Shown here: positions 39,291 through 43,038 of the stretch, piece after piece
Layout of the letters: the number at the start of each line of letters is the position of its first letter
How positions within the stretch are numbered: position 1 is the first letter of the stretch
DNA from: Bradyrhizobium jicamae
GTDB lineage: Bacteria; Pseudomonadota; Alphaproteobacteria; Rhizobiales; Xanthobacteraceae
Direction of reading: 5' to 3'
NCBI RefSeq assembly: GCF_018130215.1
Contig: NZ_JAFCKQ010000006.1
Coordinates: 62,001 to 126,000, forward strand
DNA length: 64,000 bases
The notes under the pieces: generated by a model
What the model was told of the DNA's origin: nothing
Databases searched by the model: none
What the model saw: only the letters and a program-made list of their open reading frames with translations
Translations under genes and position numbers: made by a program

Positions 39291-40145
39291 CTATGCCTTG
39301 ACGAAGGCGAGCAGGGTGCCATTGGCGGCGGCCGGCGGCACGCAGATGCTGCCGCCGCTGGATACTCCGGTCCCGCCGAGCGACTTTGCAGTGGCCGCAA
39401 GATCGGCCGCGATCACGAGGCCGGCGCCGCCGCGATCGGGCAGGCCGTCCAGCGGCACGCCGCCATAGCGCTTGCCGAGCTGCTCCCTGGTGAGGAACAC
39501 GAAGTCTGCACGATCACCGCCCGAGGGCACGGCGACGGCGCCGTCGGTCTCGTTCCTCGGGGGGATATCGATCATCTTCGATAAGTGCGCTGCATCGGTT
39601 GCCGGGTCCGGGGAGACGATCAGCACCTGCCTGAGGCGTTTCGCCCCGTTGGCATGGGTCATCAATTCAGGGATCCACACCGTCTCGCGCGTCTTGTGCT
39701 GGCAGGCGAAGATGCGCACCCCGCCGGGCGCTTCCGCAGTCGGCCACTGGAAGGTGCGGAATTTTGCCGCAGAGATCGAGCCGTTCGGCAGCGTCACGGG
39801 CCGCTCGAAATCGGTCGGCCCGACCGGTGTATAGCCGCGCGCGCGAATCTCCTCCGCGCCTTCAGCCGAATCCACGGCGGTGAAGGCGATGCGCTCGATG
39901 CCTTCGCCGCTCCTGTCGAGGAAGGCGCGTGCCGGAGCATTGTGTTCCGTCGGCGTCAGCACGCCGAGCAATTCCATGTAATCGGGGTCGAACATGATGG
40001 TGTAATTGCCCGATCCCATGTGCGCGCTATGGGTGCCACGCGGCGACACGGTGAAGCCGAGCCGCTTGTAGTTTTCGGCGGCCTTGTCGAGGTCCTTGAC
40101 CATGACCACGGCGTGATCGATTCCGACGACGTTCTTGAGTGCCAC
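39291..40145 (-). CDS. VOC-superfamily (glyoxalase-like) protein
   Basis: A 284-aa protein. The N-terminal VVGIDHAVVMVKDLDKAAEN is a classic VOC metal-site strand with His, followed by RLGFTVSPRGTHSAHMGSGN and YMELLGVLTP with the second ligand region. A diverged second half (RQVLIVSPDPATDAAHLSKM) suggests the two-module glyoxalase-like form. The GTG start at 40145 has GGAAG seven bases upstream. Function unknown: a dioxygenase, lyase or isomerase acting on a small molecule is possible. It is divergent from the FAD oxidoreductase with its start only 70 bases away. Confidence 0.78.
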   Translation of the reverse strand: MALKNVVGIDHAVVMVKDLDKAAENYKRLGFTVSPRGTHSAHMGSGNYTIMFDPDYMELLGVLTPTEHNAPARAFLDRSGEGIERIAFTAVDSAEGAEEIRARGYTPVGPTDFERPVTLPNGSISAAKFRTFQWPTAEAPGGVRIFACQHKTRETVWIPELMTHANGAKRLRQVLIVSPDPATDAAHLSKMIDIPPRNETDGAVAVPSGGDRADFVFLTREQLGKRYGGVPLDGLPDRGGAGLVIAADLAATAKSLGGTGVSSGGSICVPPAAANGTLLAFVKA

Positions 40146-40215
40146 TTCTTGTCTTCCCGGCTGGAATAAGGGAGTAAAGCTAACCAGAACGATCGGGCGC
40201 CCGCAAGAAAGGATC

Positions 40216-41521
40216 ATGATGAGCAGCAATGCCGTGCGCTGGCCCATTTCGCTGTGGGCCGCGGTGACACCGTCCGGCCCTGATTGCCCCGAACTGACCG
40301 GAGCGCAGCAGGCCGACGTCGTCATCATCGGCGGCGGCTTCACCGGGCTGTCGACGGCGCTGCATTTGCGTGAGGCCAATGTTGATGTCGCGATCGTCGA
40401 GGCCGCCGAGCCGGGCTGGGGCGCGTCTGGCCGCAACAACGGGCAGGTAATTCCGACGCTGTCGCGGCCGGATCCCGATGATATCATCGCCAAACATGGC
40501 GCGGCCGGCGAGCGCTTCGTCGCGATGTTGCGCGATAGCGCCTCCACGCTGTTCGATATCGTTGGGCGCTACGACATCGCGGCCGAACACGAGCAGTCTG
40601 GCTGGATACAGCCGGTGCATTCGCCCGGCCGCATCAAGATCGCGGAACGGCGGGTGCAGCAATGGTCGAAATTCGGCGCGCCGGTCGAGCTGTTGTCGCG
40701 CGATGAGGTCCGCGACATGCTCGGCTCGGACGCGTGGTTCGGCGGGTTCTGGAACAGGACCGGCGGCCATATCAATCCGCTGGCGCTTGCGCGCGGCCTG
40801 GCGCGTACCGTGCTCGGCCTCGGTGTACGAATCTATGCCCGCTCGCCTGCGACCAGCTTCGAGCGTCGCGGCGGCAAATGGGTGGTGAAGACGGAGAGGG
40901 GCGAGATCTCGGGCCGCGCGCTCGTAGTTGCGACCAATGCCTATAGCGGCGAGTTTTTCGACGTCGTTGGTGCCCGACATCGCCCATGAGGTGATGCCGG
41001 TACTGTCCTGGCAGATGGCAACCCAGCCGCTGTCGGACAACGTCCGCAAGACCATCATCCCCGGAAGGCTGGCGATGTCGGACACCCATGGTGAGCTGTA
41101 TTTCGCGCGCTATGATGCTCGCAATCGCCTTGTCACCGGCGGTGCCGTGATCGGTCCTGGCGACAAGGCGGCGCGGCTGAAGGCGCGGGTGACGGAGCGA
41201 TTGCAGCGGTTGTGGCCGCAGATCGGCGACATTTCCTTCGACTGCGTCTGGAACGGCTATGTCGGCATGACCTCGGATTTCCTGCCGCGCATCCACCGGC
41301 TCGGGCCGAACGCCTTCGGCTGGACCGGCTGCAACGGCCGTGCGGTTGCGCTGACGATGCCGCTCGGCCGCGAGCTCGCCAAGGCGGTGCAGGGCGTGCC
41401 AGAGAGCGAGCTCGCGCTGCCCTTCACCGAGCCGGTCACGATCCCGGCGCACGGCCTGATGCGCAAGCTCGCGCCGCTGATGCTCCTGGTCTATCGCCGC
41501 CGCGATGCGCGGGAGATGTAA
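40216..41521 (+). pseudogene. FAD-dependent oxidoreductase, PuuB-like, with a one-base frameshift
   Basis: Two frames together make one DAO-type flavoprotein of about 434 aa. Frame 1 (from 40216) has VVIIGGGFTGLSTALHLREA, SGRNNGQVIP and the substrate domain, and stops after ATNAYSGEFFDVVGARHRP. Frame 2 carries on with LVPDIAHEVMPVLSWQMATQ, NGYVGMTSDFLPRIHRLGPN and GCNGRAVALTMPLGRELA to 41521. The break is in a run of five T at 40954-40958; with one T fewer the protein reads GEFSTSLVPDIAHE. It resembles gamma-glutamylputrescine oxidase. It could be a true pseudogene, a phase-variable tract or a sequencing error. Confidence 0.85.
41459..41521 (+). repeat. Oxidoreductase 3' end, first copy of a diverged duplication
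   Basis: The last 63 bases of the FAD oxidoreductase recur, with about eight substitutions and one inserted base, at 42977-43038. The shared core includes GCGCAAGCTCG and CTATCGCCGCCGCGA. The copies flank the phosphofructokinase segment as direct repeats. Confidence 0.8.
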
Positions 41522-41716
41522 TGCAAGAAGGGGCCGGCAGCGTCGGGCGGGGTCCGTCCAGAGGACGTTGTGCTCCGAAGATGCTGGGCATTATCCTAAC
41601 GAGATATCACCGGGCGCCGATGTCCGCCATCTTGAGGAGCCCGCCGCCGGCGGATAACCTAGGGAAACCCCGACCTGACGCAGGCGTTATTGCGAGATAC
41701 CAATCGGGAGGTGGGC

Positions 41717-42904
41717 ATGGCGAGGAAGCGCATAGGTATTCTCACGGGAGGCGGTGACGTCCCCGGCCTCAATGCTGTGATCAAGAGTGTGACTTATCGC
41801 GGCAGCGAGGACGACATTGAGGTTGTCGGTCTCCGCCGTGGTTGGGAGGCTCTCACGCACCTGAACCTCGACGACCCGGCCTGCAAGTCCCACTACATCA
41901 TCCCGCTGAACCGCGAAAACACGCGCATCATCGACCGGCGCGGCGGCACCGTGCTGCACTCGAGCCGCACCAATCCCTCCAAAATGAAGAAGCTGCCCAA
42001 TCATCTCGTGGGGCAGGACTTTCCAGTTTCCCAGAGCACCAGGGACGGCATCGCAACCAAGACTTGGGACCTCACGGGCCAGGTACTGGCAAACCTCGCG
42101 GGGCTCGGCATCGAGCACCTGATCGCTATCGGCGGCGACGATACGCTGAGCTATGCCGACAAGCTCAATGGACTCGGCGTCAAGATCATTGCCATCCCGA
42201 AGACGATGGACAACGATGTCCGCAACACCGAGTACTGCATCGGTTTCTCGACCGCGATCACCCGCGCCAGTGATGCCATCCAGCGGCAGCGCACCACTGT
42301 CGGCTCGCACGAGCGAATTGGCATTTTCCGCATCTTTGGCCGCGATGCCGGATTTACCGCGCTTTACACCGCCTACGCGACCTCGATCCGATGCGCCATA
42401 CCGGAGTACAAGGTCAACCTCGACAAGTTGATCCAGCTTCTCGTTGAGGACAAGCACGGCAACCCAAGCAACTACGCGCTGATCGTGCTCAGCGAGGGCG
42501 CCGAGTGGGAGGGTTACAAGGTGCAGGAATACGGCGACCCTGACGCCTACGGGCACCGCAGGAAGGCGAGTGTGGCCGAAGCATTCGCCGACGAGATCAA
42601 GCGGCGCGCCGGCGAGGAGACCATCGTCTCTGACCTCACCTACGACCTGCGATCGGGCGATCCAGACTTCATCGACAAGCTTGTCGCACTGACGTTCGGC
42701 AACCTGGCCTACGATGCCATCCTGGAAGGCAAGACCGGGCTGATGTCGGCGCTGGTCGAGGGCCGCTACGACCTCGTGCCCATCCCGGACGCCAAGCTCG
42801 GACCGCGCAAATTGGACGTTGCCACCGCGTACAACGCTGAGCGCTATCGTCCCCTTTACTCCAACAAGCGGGGGCTGCCGATTTTTCTCAACCGCGCTTC
42901 ATAA
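41717..42904 (+). CDS. pfp: 6-phosphofructokinase with pyrophosphate-type signature residues
   Basis: A 395-aa PFKA-fold enzyme. ILTGGGDVPGLNAVI is the nucleotide-loop entry; IAIGGDDTLSYADKL and IIAIPKTMDNDVRNTEYCIG hold the two diagnostic positions. ATP enzymes have Gly at both (GGDGS and PGTIDND), whereas PPi enzymes have Asp and Lys, as here (GGDD and PKT). This predicts pyrophosphate as phosphoryl donor. Other motifs: GRDAGFTALYTA, SEGAEWEGYK. The start is ATG 41717 with GGGAGG five bases upstream; an ATG at 41690 lacks such a site. It is flanked by a duplicated gene end, suggesting acquisition. PPi use is inferred from the two residues. Confidence 0.88.
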   Translation: MARKRIGILTGGGDVPGLNAVIKSVTYRGSEDDIEVVGLRRGWEALTHLNLDDPACKSHYIIPLNRENTRIIDRRGGTVLHSSRTNPSKMKKLPNHLVGQDFPVSQSTRDGIATKTWDLTGQVLANLAGLGIEHLIAIGGDDTLSYADKLNGLGVKIIAIPKTMDNDVRNTEYCIGFSTAITRASDAIQRQRTTVGSHERIGIFRIFGRDAGFTALYTAYATSIRCAIPEYKVNLDKLIQLLVEDKHGNPSNYALIVLSEGAEWEGYKVQEYGDPDAYGHRRKASVAEAFADEIKRRAGEETIVSDLTYDLRSGDPDFIDKLVALTFGNLAYDAILEGKTGLMSALVEGRYDLVPIPDAKLGPRKLDVATAYNAERYRPLYSNKRGLPIFLNRAS

Positions 42905-42976
42905 GTGAAGGGGCAACGCCACTGCCGACGAAGCCGCCAGCGCGGCAGGAGGATTGTTTCAAACCCAACGTCGCAT

Positions 42977-43038
42977 CTGCGCAAGCTCGTGCCGCCGATG
43001 CTCCCGGTTCTATCGCCGCCGCGACACGCGGGAAATGG
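42977..43038 (+). repeat. Oxidoreductase 3' end, second (degenerate) copy
   Basis: Imperfect copy of 41459-41521 with one extra base that destroys the reading frame. It ends directly against the stop codon of the convergent ATPase gene (43040). The position suggests that the oxidoreductase and the ATPase gene were once direct neighbours. Confidence 0.8.

Follow-up and report, generated by a model that had tools for sequence, protein, structure and literature searches.

This locus raises the question of which phosphoryl donor its phosphofructokinase (PFK) uses, and what such an enzyme is good for in Bradyrhizobium. Most rhizobia have been described as lacking PFK activity, and the same source, in the part available, already notes bll2850 as a PFK gene of B. 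japonicum, for which an Embden-Meyerhof pathway was suggested, and a PFK gene in M. loti as well (PMC1557990). The gene studied here lies in a window of 64,000 nucleotides, which is the whole stretch of Bradyrhizobium jicamae DNA that was analysed. The best explanation, which we hold to be probable on the strength of the sequence, is that it encodes a reversible and probably non-allosteric PPi-dependent 6-phosphofructokinase (F6P + PPi <-> FBP + Pi). The gene and the sites within it are the following.

41707-41714, + strand: GGAGGTGG, which likely serves the ATG at 41717 as ribosome-binding site (from the sequence).
41717-42904, + strand: gene of the PfkA superfamily, predicted PPi:fructose-6-phosphate 1-phosphotransferase, 395 aa (PF00365, AlphaFold2 model, VIA, alignment).
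42131-42154, + strand: donor motif GGDDTLSY, residues 139-146, with Asp142 at Gly104 of E. coli and Tyr146 at Gly108 (alignment; PPi consensus of PMC11609450, excerpt).
42197-42217, + strand: PKTMDND, residues 161-167, with Lys162 at Gly124 and the catalytic base Asp165 at Asp127 (alignment).
42314-42343, + strand: acceptor site, Arg200 (Arg162) kept, Phe207 (Met169) changed, Arg209 (Arg171) kept (alignment).
42623-42652, + strand: acceptor site, Ile303 (Arg243) and Tyr309 (His249) changed, Arg312 (Arg252) kept (alignment).

The reading frame is intact from the ATG at 41717 to a stop codon ending at 42904, and its 395 aa belong to the phosphofructokinase superfamily, with 208.8 bits to Pfam PF00365 (cut-off 30.9) and the fold present at full length. 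The 8.55 Mb draft genome has no other PF00365 gene, in a count confined to this family and apart from PfkB-type kinases. Each of the 12 NCBIfam models listed has a curated cut-off above the score of the protein. The top match is TIGR02483 (PFK_mixed), with 252.3 bits where 430.55 would be needed, the runner-up is the subfamily PRK03202, named 'ATP-dependent', with 233.6 bits (cut-off 253), and NF005121, the model for PFP of the S. meliloti type, gives 48.9 bits (cut-off 395). Ten further members of the subfamily were scanned, none of which reached TIGR02483 and three of which reached PRK03202. The three in question (L041, L078 and L081) carry the PPi signature and yet pass a model called 'ATP-dependent 6-phosphofructokinase', a likely source of wrong names; for this subfamily the name would mislead, because the donor motif is of the PPi type.

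Positions are given after E. coli PfkA from NC_000913, the literature number being the gene number minus 1. The preliminary description had taken the Asp of GGDD (residues 139-142) and the Lys of PKT (residues 161-163) as the residues that separate donors. In the alignment with PfkA neither of them falls outside the donor-specificity positions, D142 lying on Gly104 and K162 on Gly124. By itself the Lys has no diagnostic value, because Lys124 is also carried by the ATP-PFK of T. brucei (PMC12203962, excerpt) and the PFK of Acaryochloris combines it with Gly104. At positions 104, 108 and 124 the comparison rows read G/G/G in E. coli PfkA, G/G/A in B. methanolicus PfkA, G/I/K in Acaryochloris (the ADP pattern) and D/T/K in S. 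meliloti PFP. A paper from 2024 assigns GGDGSxxG to ATP, GGDGSxxI to ADP and GG(D/E)D(S/T)xxx to PPi, and mentions that an Asp to Gly change switched the donor of an Entamoeba enzyme from PPi to ATP (PMC11609450, excerpt). The GGDDTLSY of the window departs from the ATP motif, and an ADP-PFK (the ADP-PFK-A of cyanobacteria and some alphaproteobacteria) is rejected by the same comparison. According to the available part of PMC12203962, the Asp of GGDD stands where ATP has its alpha-phosphate, the Lys touches a sulfate that mimics PPi, and the exclusion of adenine is tied to a residue bulkier than Gly at 108.

These residues were followed through the subfamily in an alignment of 92 rows, that is the window and 91 loci, without the two copies from its own genome but with near-copies included; Bradyrhizobium accounts for 20 rows, and one row (L018) is partial. 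Asp is found at 104 in 92/92 rows, and position 108 always holds a residue larger than Gly, Tyr in 70 (as Y146 in the window) and Phe in 22. Lys124 and Asp127 are likewise present in 92/92, which is fixed by construction in 79 of the 80 pattern-search loci because these contain IPKTMDND, one of the search patterns. All nine loci that were found independently of the patterns, in a search of 297 genomes of the order (three in Bradyrhizobium and six in other genera, at 43-47%), keep Asp104, Tyr108 and Lys124, and also Asp127. The earlier prediction of a PPi-type PFK is borne out as far as residues can tell, with the bulky Tyr146 at Gly108 as an additional point and with the PPi-PFK of Ca. Prometheoarchaeum syntrophicum as the best PDB match by sequence; PPi is the likely phosphoryl donor.

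The overall structure is less informative in this respect. An AlphaFold2 model built with 49 aligned sequences has a mean pLDDT of 91.5, and the first structure by VIA Z is 9cir, the Ca. Prometheoarchaeum syntrophicum enzyme (Z 35.8, rmsd 2.9, 336 aligned residues). ATP-PFKs do equally well (3pfk Z 35.4, 1mto 35.3), and by the E-value of Foldseek they fill rows 1-4, with 9cir fifth, so the fold identifies the superfamily without discriminating between donors.

The F6P site of E. coli PfkA, which we take to be R162, M169, E222, R243, H249 and R252, is in part rebuilt in the subfamily. Arg162, Arg171, Glu222 and Arg252 are conserved in 92/92 rows, Met169 is replaced by Phe and His249 by Tyr in 92/92, and Arg243 by Ile, Met, Val or Leu in 90/92, with Ala and Thr once each. 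The acceptor positions lie outside every peptide pattern of the 80-locus search, and the altered residues are the same in 9/9 of the loci found without patterns. In E. coli PfkA, Arg243 and His249 presumably bind the 6-phosphate of F6P, and their loss was at one point taken as proof of another acceptor. This was withdrawn and kept as a rival, since S. meliloti PFP, annotated as a PPi:F6P phosphotransferase though only about 24% identical, aligns with Met243 and Tyr249, and a non-F6P acceptor does not follow from such a pair. The PPi-PFK of Nitrosospira (3hno) has Tyr at 249 by eye, and in the alignment its relative in Monoglobus shows Thr249 together with Arg243, two readings that differ and make column 249 uncertain outside the subfamily. 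Of the positions that we looked at as belonging to the effector site, the window protein departs from the E. coli residue at 25, 59, 211 and 213, shares Arg with E. coli at 54 and 154, and has Lys at 21; a loss of allostery is only a guess, because some of these positions differ and others match.

In the mechanism that we propose, Asp142 would fill the space of the ATP alpha-phosphate and let PPi bind in register, while Lys162 would hold PPi and Tyr146 keep adenine out. Asp165 would activate the 1-hydroxyl of the sugar, and Arg200 and Arg312 would bind the sugar phosphate, Tyr309 standing where a His is usual. The genome itself contains a class I FBPase, two class II FBP aldolases, a transaldolase and a membrane pyrophosphatase, and because of these a PPi-PFK would complete the upper Embden-Meyerhof route. 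The window strain has the PFK only, and its own FBPase and class II aldolases could supply the remaining steps. Such an enzyme may work in the glycolytic direction when PPi is plentiful, and in the gluconeogenic direction with release of PPi when it is not. A role as the main-line PFK fits, because here, and also in 14/25 genomes (25 that were picked from the 80 pattern-search loci, genome completeness not given), PF00365 is represented by the subfamily gene alone.

An enzyme that depends on PPi but acts mainly on sedoheptulose 7-phosphate, or on some other sugar phosphate that would fit the altered pocket, is a rather unlikely alternative, even if it has some appeal: the exchanges at 169, 243 and 249 run through practically the whole subfamily and all of the pattern-free loci, and some PPi-PFKs are known to act on sedoheptulose 7-phosphate (PMC12203962, excerpt). 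Against this stand the Met243 and Tyr249 of the annotated S. meliloti PFP, the Tyr read by eye in 3hno, and the many genomes in which the subfamily gene is alone for PF00365. The transaldolase of the window strain also means that a bypass through sedoheptulose phosphate is not required, and we rejected phosphorylation of sedoheptulose 7-phosphate as a substitute for transaldolase as unneeded.

It is very improbable that the database name 'ATP-dependent 6-phosphofructokinase' is right and that ATP, or ADP, or ATP together with PPi is used despite the signature, for Asp104 and Tyr108 contradict the motifs of both the ATP enzymes (GGDGSxxG) and the ADP enzymes (GGDGSxxI). What can be said for such a donor is that PRK03202 is the second-nearest NCBIfam model (233.6 vs 253 bits) and is passed by three of ten members, and that ATP-PFKs lead the Foldseek list. 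The enzyme of Acetivibrio thermocellus reportedly uses both donors. ADP-PFKs are described in a few alphaproteobacteria (PMC11609450, excerpt). We consider it least probable of all that the PFK is a passenger without a role in the window strain. This would agree with the absence of its usual neighbour, as there is no FBPase_3 match in the draft genome, with the decayed repeat at the junction and with the adjoining oxidoreductase gene, which is split over two frames (see below). The reading frame is however intact, the catalytic residues are kept, and purifying selection is seen in pairwise dN/dS values of 0.07-0.14 (6 comparisons); to the nearest relative dN is 0.015 and dS 0.19, an average that does not describe the tip branch alone. 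A PPi-dependent 6-phosphofructokinase acting on F6P remains our preferred reading.

Besides Bradyrhizobium, the subfamily includes sequences from Acidobacteriota, Chloroflexota, Geobacteraceae and other groups. A sample of 195 Bradyrhizobium genomes gave matches in 76, of which 72 (the window strain included) are full-length at 85-100% identity and four are weak and partial only. When 297 genomes of the order were searched (threshold E 1e-40), close copies came from Bradyrhizobium only, namely the window genome and three more, and eight other genomes have relatives at 36-50%. A tree of 99 rows unites Bradyrhizobium and a bin titled 'Proteobacteria' (L008) in one clade (100/100), which joins ten Acidobacteriota rows in a clade of 31 rows (100/100), far from the other copies of the order. 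Half of these ten rows are titled Bryobacterales or Bryobacteraceae. Which Acidobacteriota row is nearest varies, L025 in the 99-row tree (88/94) and L009 in a 38-row tree (54/12), and contig misplacement is possible for single rows because many of the outside rows are metagenome bins. From the grouping with Acidobacteriota, together with the shallow and patchy cluster in Bradyrhizobium, we infer that the PFK was transferred from Acidobacteriota to Bradyrhizobium. The trees do not place the Bradyrhizobium sequences inside Acidobacteriota firmly enough to prove this direction, the ten rows as one clade being compatible with the data (p-AU 0.115).

Outside Bradyrhizobium, 71 neighbourhoods with 607 clustered ORFs contained no recurrent neighbour that explains the function; the genes that do recur, both named by eye, look like a Nudix gene (9 loci) and a methyltransferase gene (7 loci). 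At six loci outside Bradyrhizobium a long PFK-like gene is found near the subfamily PFK, within 300 bp in four of them and with a length of 756 aa in L073 (3659-5926). The genome G508 has three PF00365 matches side by side.

The insertion itself can be delimited by comparison with relatives at the junction between the gene of a FAD-dependent oxidoreductase (DAO) and a dpp-type ABC gene.

41460-41518, + strand: first of the two direct-repeat copies, formed by the 3' end of the DAO gene upstream (site comparison).
41519-42977, + strand: inserted segment with the PFK, missing from the DAO-ABC junction of relatives that have no PFK there (empty-site comparison).
42978-43037, + strand: decayed second repeat copy of the DAO 3' end, from which the sequence runs on into the dpp-type ABC gene just as it does at the empty site (site comparison).

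The downstream repeat copy is the decayed original DAO-ABC junction. Thirty loci around the DAO 3' end were compared, and the PFK is there in 13, absent from that place in 16, while one (G017) has neither arrangement. At the 16 PFK-free loci the dpp-type ABC gene ends about 10-360 bp from DAO, the gap in G191 being about 10 bp, and three of them (G019, G054 and G087) belong to genomes that carry the PFK elsewhere. The sister genome G153, with a PFK that is 97% identical, has the order DAO, PFK, aldolase/phosphatase, ABC gene. In the six genomes that have the PFK only (G000, G044, G139, G148, G165 and G173) it stands just after DAO in 6/6 by coordinates. That the segment was acquired, as had been proposed from the window alone, finds support in the tree, the patchy distribution and the empty-site comparison. 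The DAO gene of the window (40135-41521, + strand) is split between two frames, at 40135-40989 and at 40928-41521, and each portion matches one part of PF01266, whereas in the relative L002 it is a single ORF of 486 aa; either a frameshift or an assembly error explains the split.

In most Bradyrhizobium genomes that have it, the PFK is accompanied by a gene for an archaeal-type FBP aldolase/phosphatase (PF01950, FBPase_3). This gene is present in 66/195 genomes, all of them PFK-positive (66/72), and in 0/123 of the rest, a co-occurrence with a Fisher P of 1.6e-45, which ignores relatedness. It is on the same strand as the PFK in 66/66 and 57-280 bp away by match ends, upstream in 55 and downstream in 11. 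The 135 contigs of the draft genome of the window strain contain no PF01950 match. A comparison of 26 loci sorts the sequence upstream of the module into 9 groups that have no detectable similarity to each other, one of which (L006) is a PFK without aldolase/phosphatase in its flanks, and the gene order differs, so the pair has been retained at different sites. In the relative L002 the protein has 383 aa and 472.8 bits to PF01950, and with 442.3 bits it stays under the cut-off of the equivalog NF041126 (520); the protein contains a YxxKDD stretch, which we take to be catalytic. One locus (G177:C1:2561125-2562230) has the aldolase/phosphatase match in two pieces beside an intact PFK.

A joint transfer of the two genes from one donor is unsupported, as only 1/25 non-Bradyrhizobium subfamily genomes has the aldolase/phosphatase, on a different contig. 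It was absent from the flanks of every non-Bradyrhizobium pattern-search locus, within up to 6 kb that are often cut by contig ends, and a genome of the order with both genes (G301) has them about 0.8 Mb apart. Two genomes of another genus (L121, 1498-2673, and L122) have an aldolase/phosphatase that is 77% identical and lack this PFK, which suggests a separate spread. We also rejected the idea that the neighbour gene replaces a missing FBPase, as class I FBPase is found in 178/195 genomes and in 71/72 of the PFK-positive ones (G152 being the one without). Where the two enzymes occur together they could form a PPi-linked F6P/FBP node, and this would let an organism with Entner-Doudoroff and pentose-phosphate pathways run the upper Embden-Meyerhof route both ways. 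Neither a report of the pairing of PFK with aldolase/phosphatase nor one of the acceptor pocket of the subfamily was found among the matches listed in a literature search whose coverage leaves out most subscription journals.

The gene bll2850 is presumably an ortholog of the window PFK gene, and a genome titled B. japonicum (L007) carries both the PFK and the aldolase/phosphatase genes. A proteome study from 2018, in the part available, gives the annotated phosphofructokinases of B. diazoefficiens (printed Bll2580 and Blr4659) as EC 2.7.1.11, the ATP enzyme, and as undetected on mannitol, which argues against a large role of PFK on that substrate (PMC5996035). Another type of PFK may exist beside the subfamily PFK, because Blr4659 is named PfkB in a study from 2024, where it was upregulated in a phaR mutant (PMC10888616, excerpt). 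PPi-PFKs as such are already known in alphaproteobacteria, from Methylobacterium nodulans and Methylosinus trichosporium, and kcat values of known PPi-PFKs run from 16 to 330 per second (PMC12203962, excerpt). If the enzyme uses PPi, the label EC 2.7.1.11 and assays with ATP, which past assays of rhizobial PFK presumably were, target the wrong reaction, and the pairing with FBP aldolase/phosphatase in 66 sampled genomes offers a concrete clue to the way in which the F6P/FBP node works. We tentatively hypothesize, with somewhat more doubt than belief, that a broad PFK subfamily with no fitting NCBIfam model uses PPi with a rebuilt sugar-phosphate pocket, and that in Bradyrhizobium it has been joined to the archaeal-type FBP aldolase/phosphatase in a two-gene module that has moved between sites and gives slow-growing rhizobia an ATP-independent and reversible Embden-Meyerhof node, invisible to ATP-coupled PFK assays. 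If true, the module could explain the conflicting reports on the operation of the Embden-Meyerhof pathway in these bacteria.

Among known systems, the PFP of Sinorhizobium meliloti (NF005121), which we take to be of the SMc01852 type, shares Asp104, Lys124, a hydrophobic residue at 243 and Tyr249 with the window protein. The two are nevertheless not the same enzyme, an identity that we rejected on account of the about 24% identical residues and of NF005121, which S. meliloti PFP passes at 749.5 bits and to which the window protein, at 48.9 bits, falls far short of the cut-off of 395. The mixed-substrate PFKs of group III (TIGR02483, e.g. actinobacterial PFKs) are the best NCBIfam match and their Nonomuraea member shares Asp104 and Lys124, but the window protein is under the cut-off and Nonomuraea keeps Met169, Arg243 and His249. 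PPi-PFK1 of Trichomonas vaginalis (9dqm and relatives) is also a short PPi-PFK with the same fold (Z 32-34); it is 28-29% identical and differs by extra helices and an AMP site (PMC12203962, excerpt). The protein of the neighbour gene matches the FBP aldolase/phosphatase structures 3r1m, 1umg and 3t2b, with residues 2-372 matching ST0318 (3r1m). For the PPi-PFK of Ca. Prometheoarchaeum syntrophicum (9cir and relatives), an organism that no paper among the matches listed in the literature search names, the likeness extends to the fold over 336 residues, to GGDDT and PKTxDND, and to 32% identity in the structural alignment, and the difference lies in the acceptor pocket, where the archaeal enzyme, by eye from the alignment, keeps Arg243, His249 and the MGR motif.
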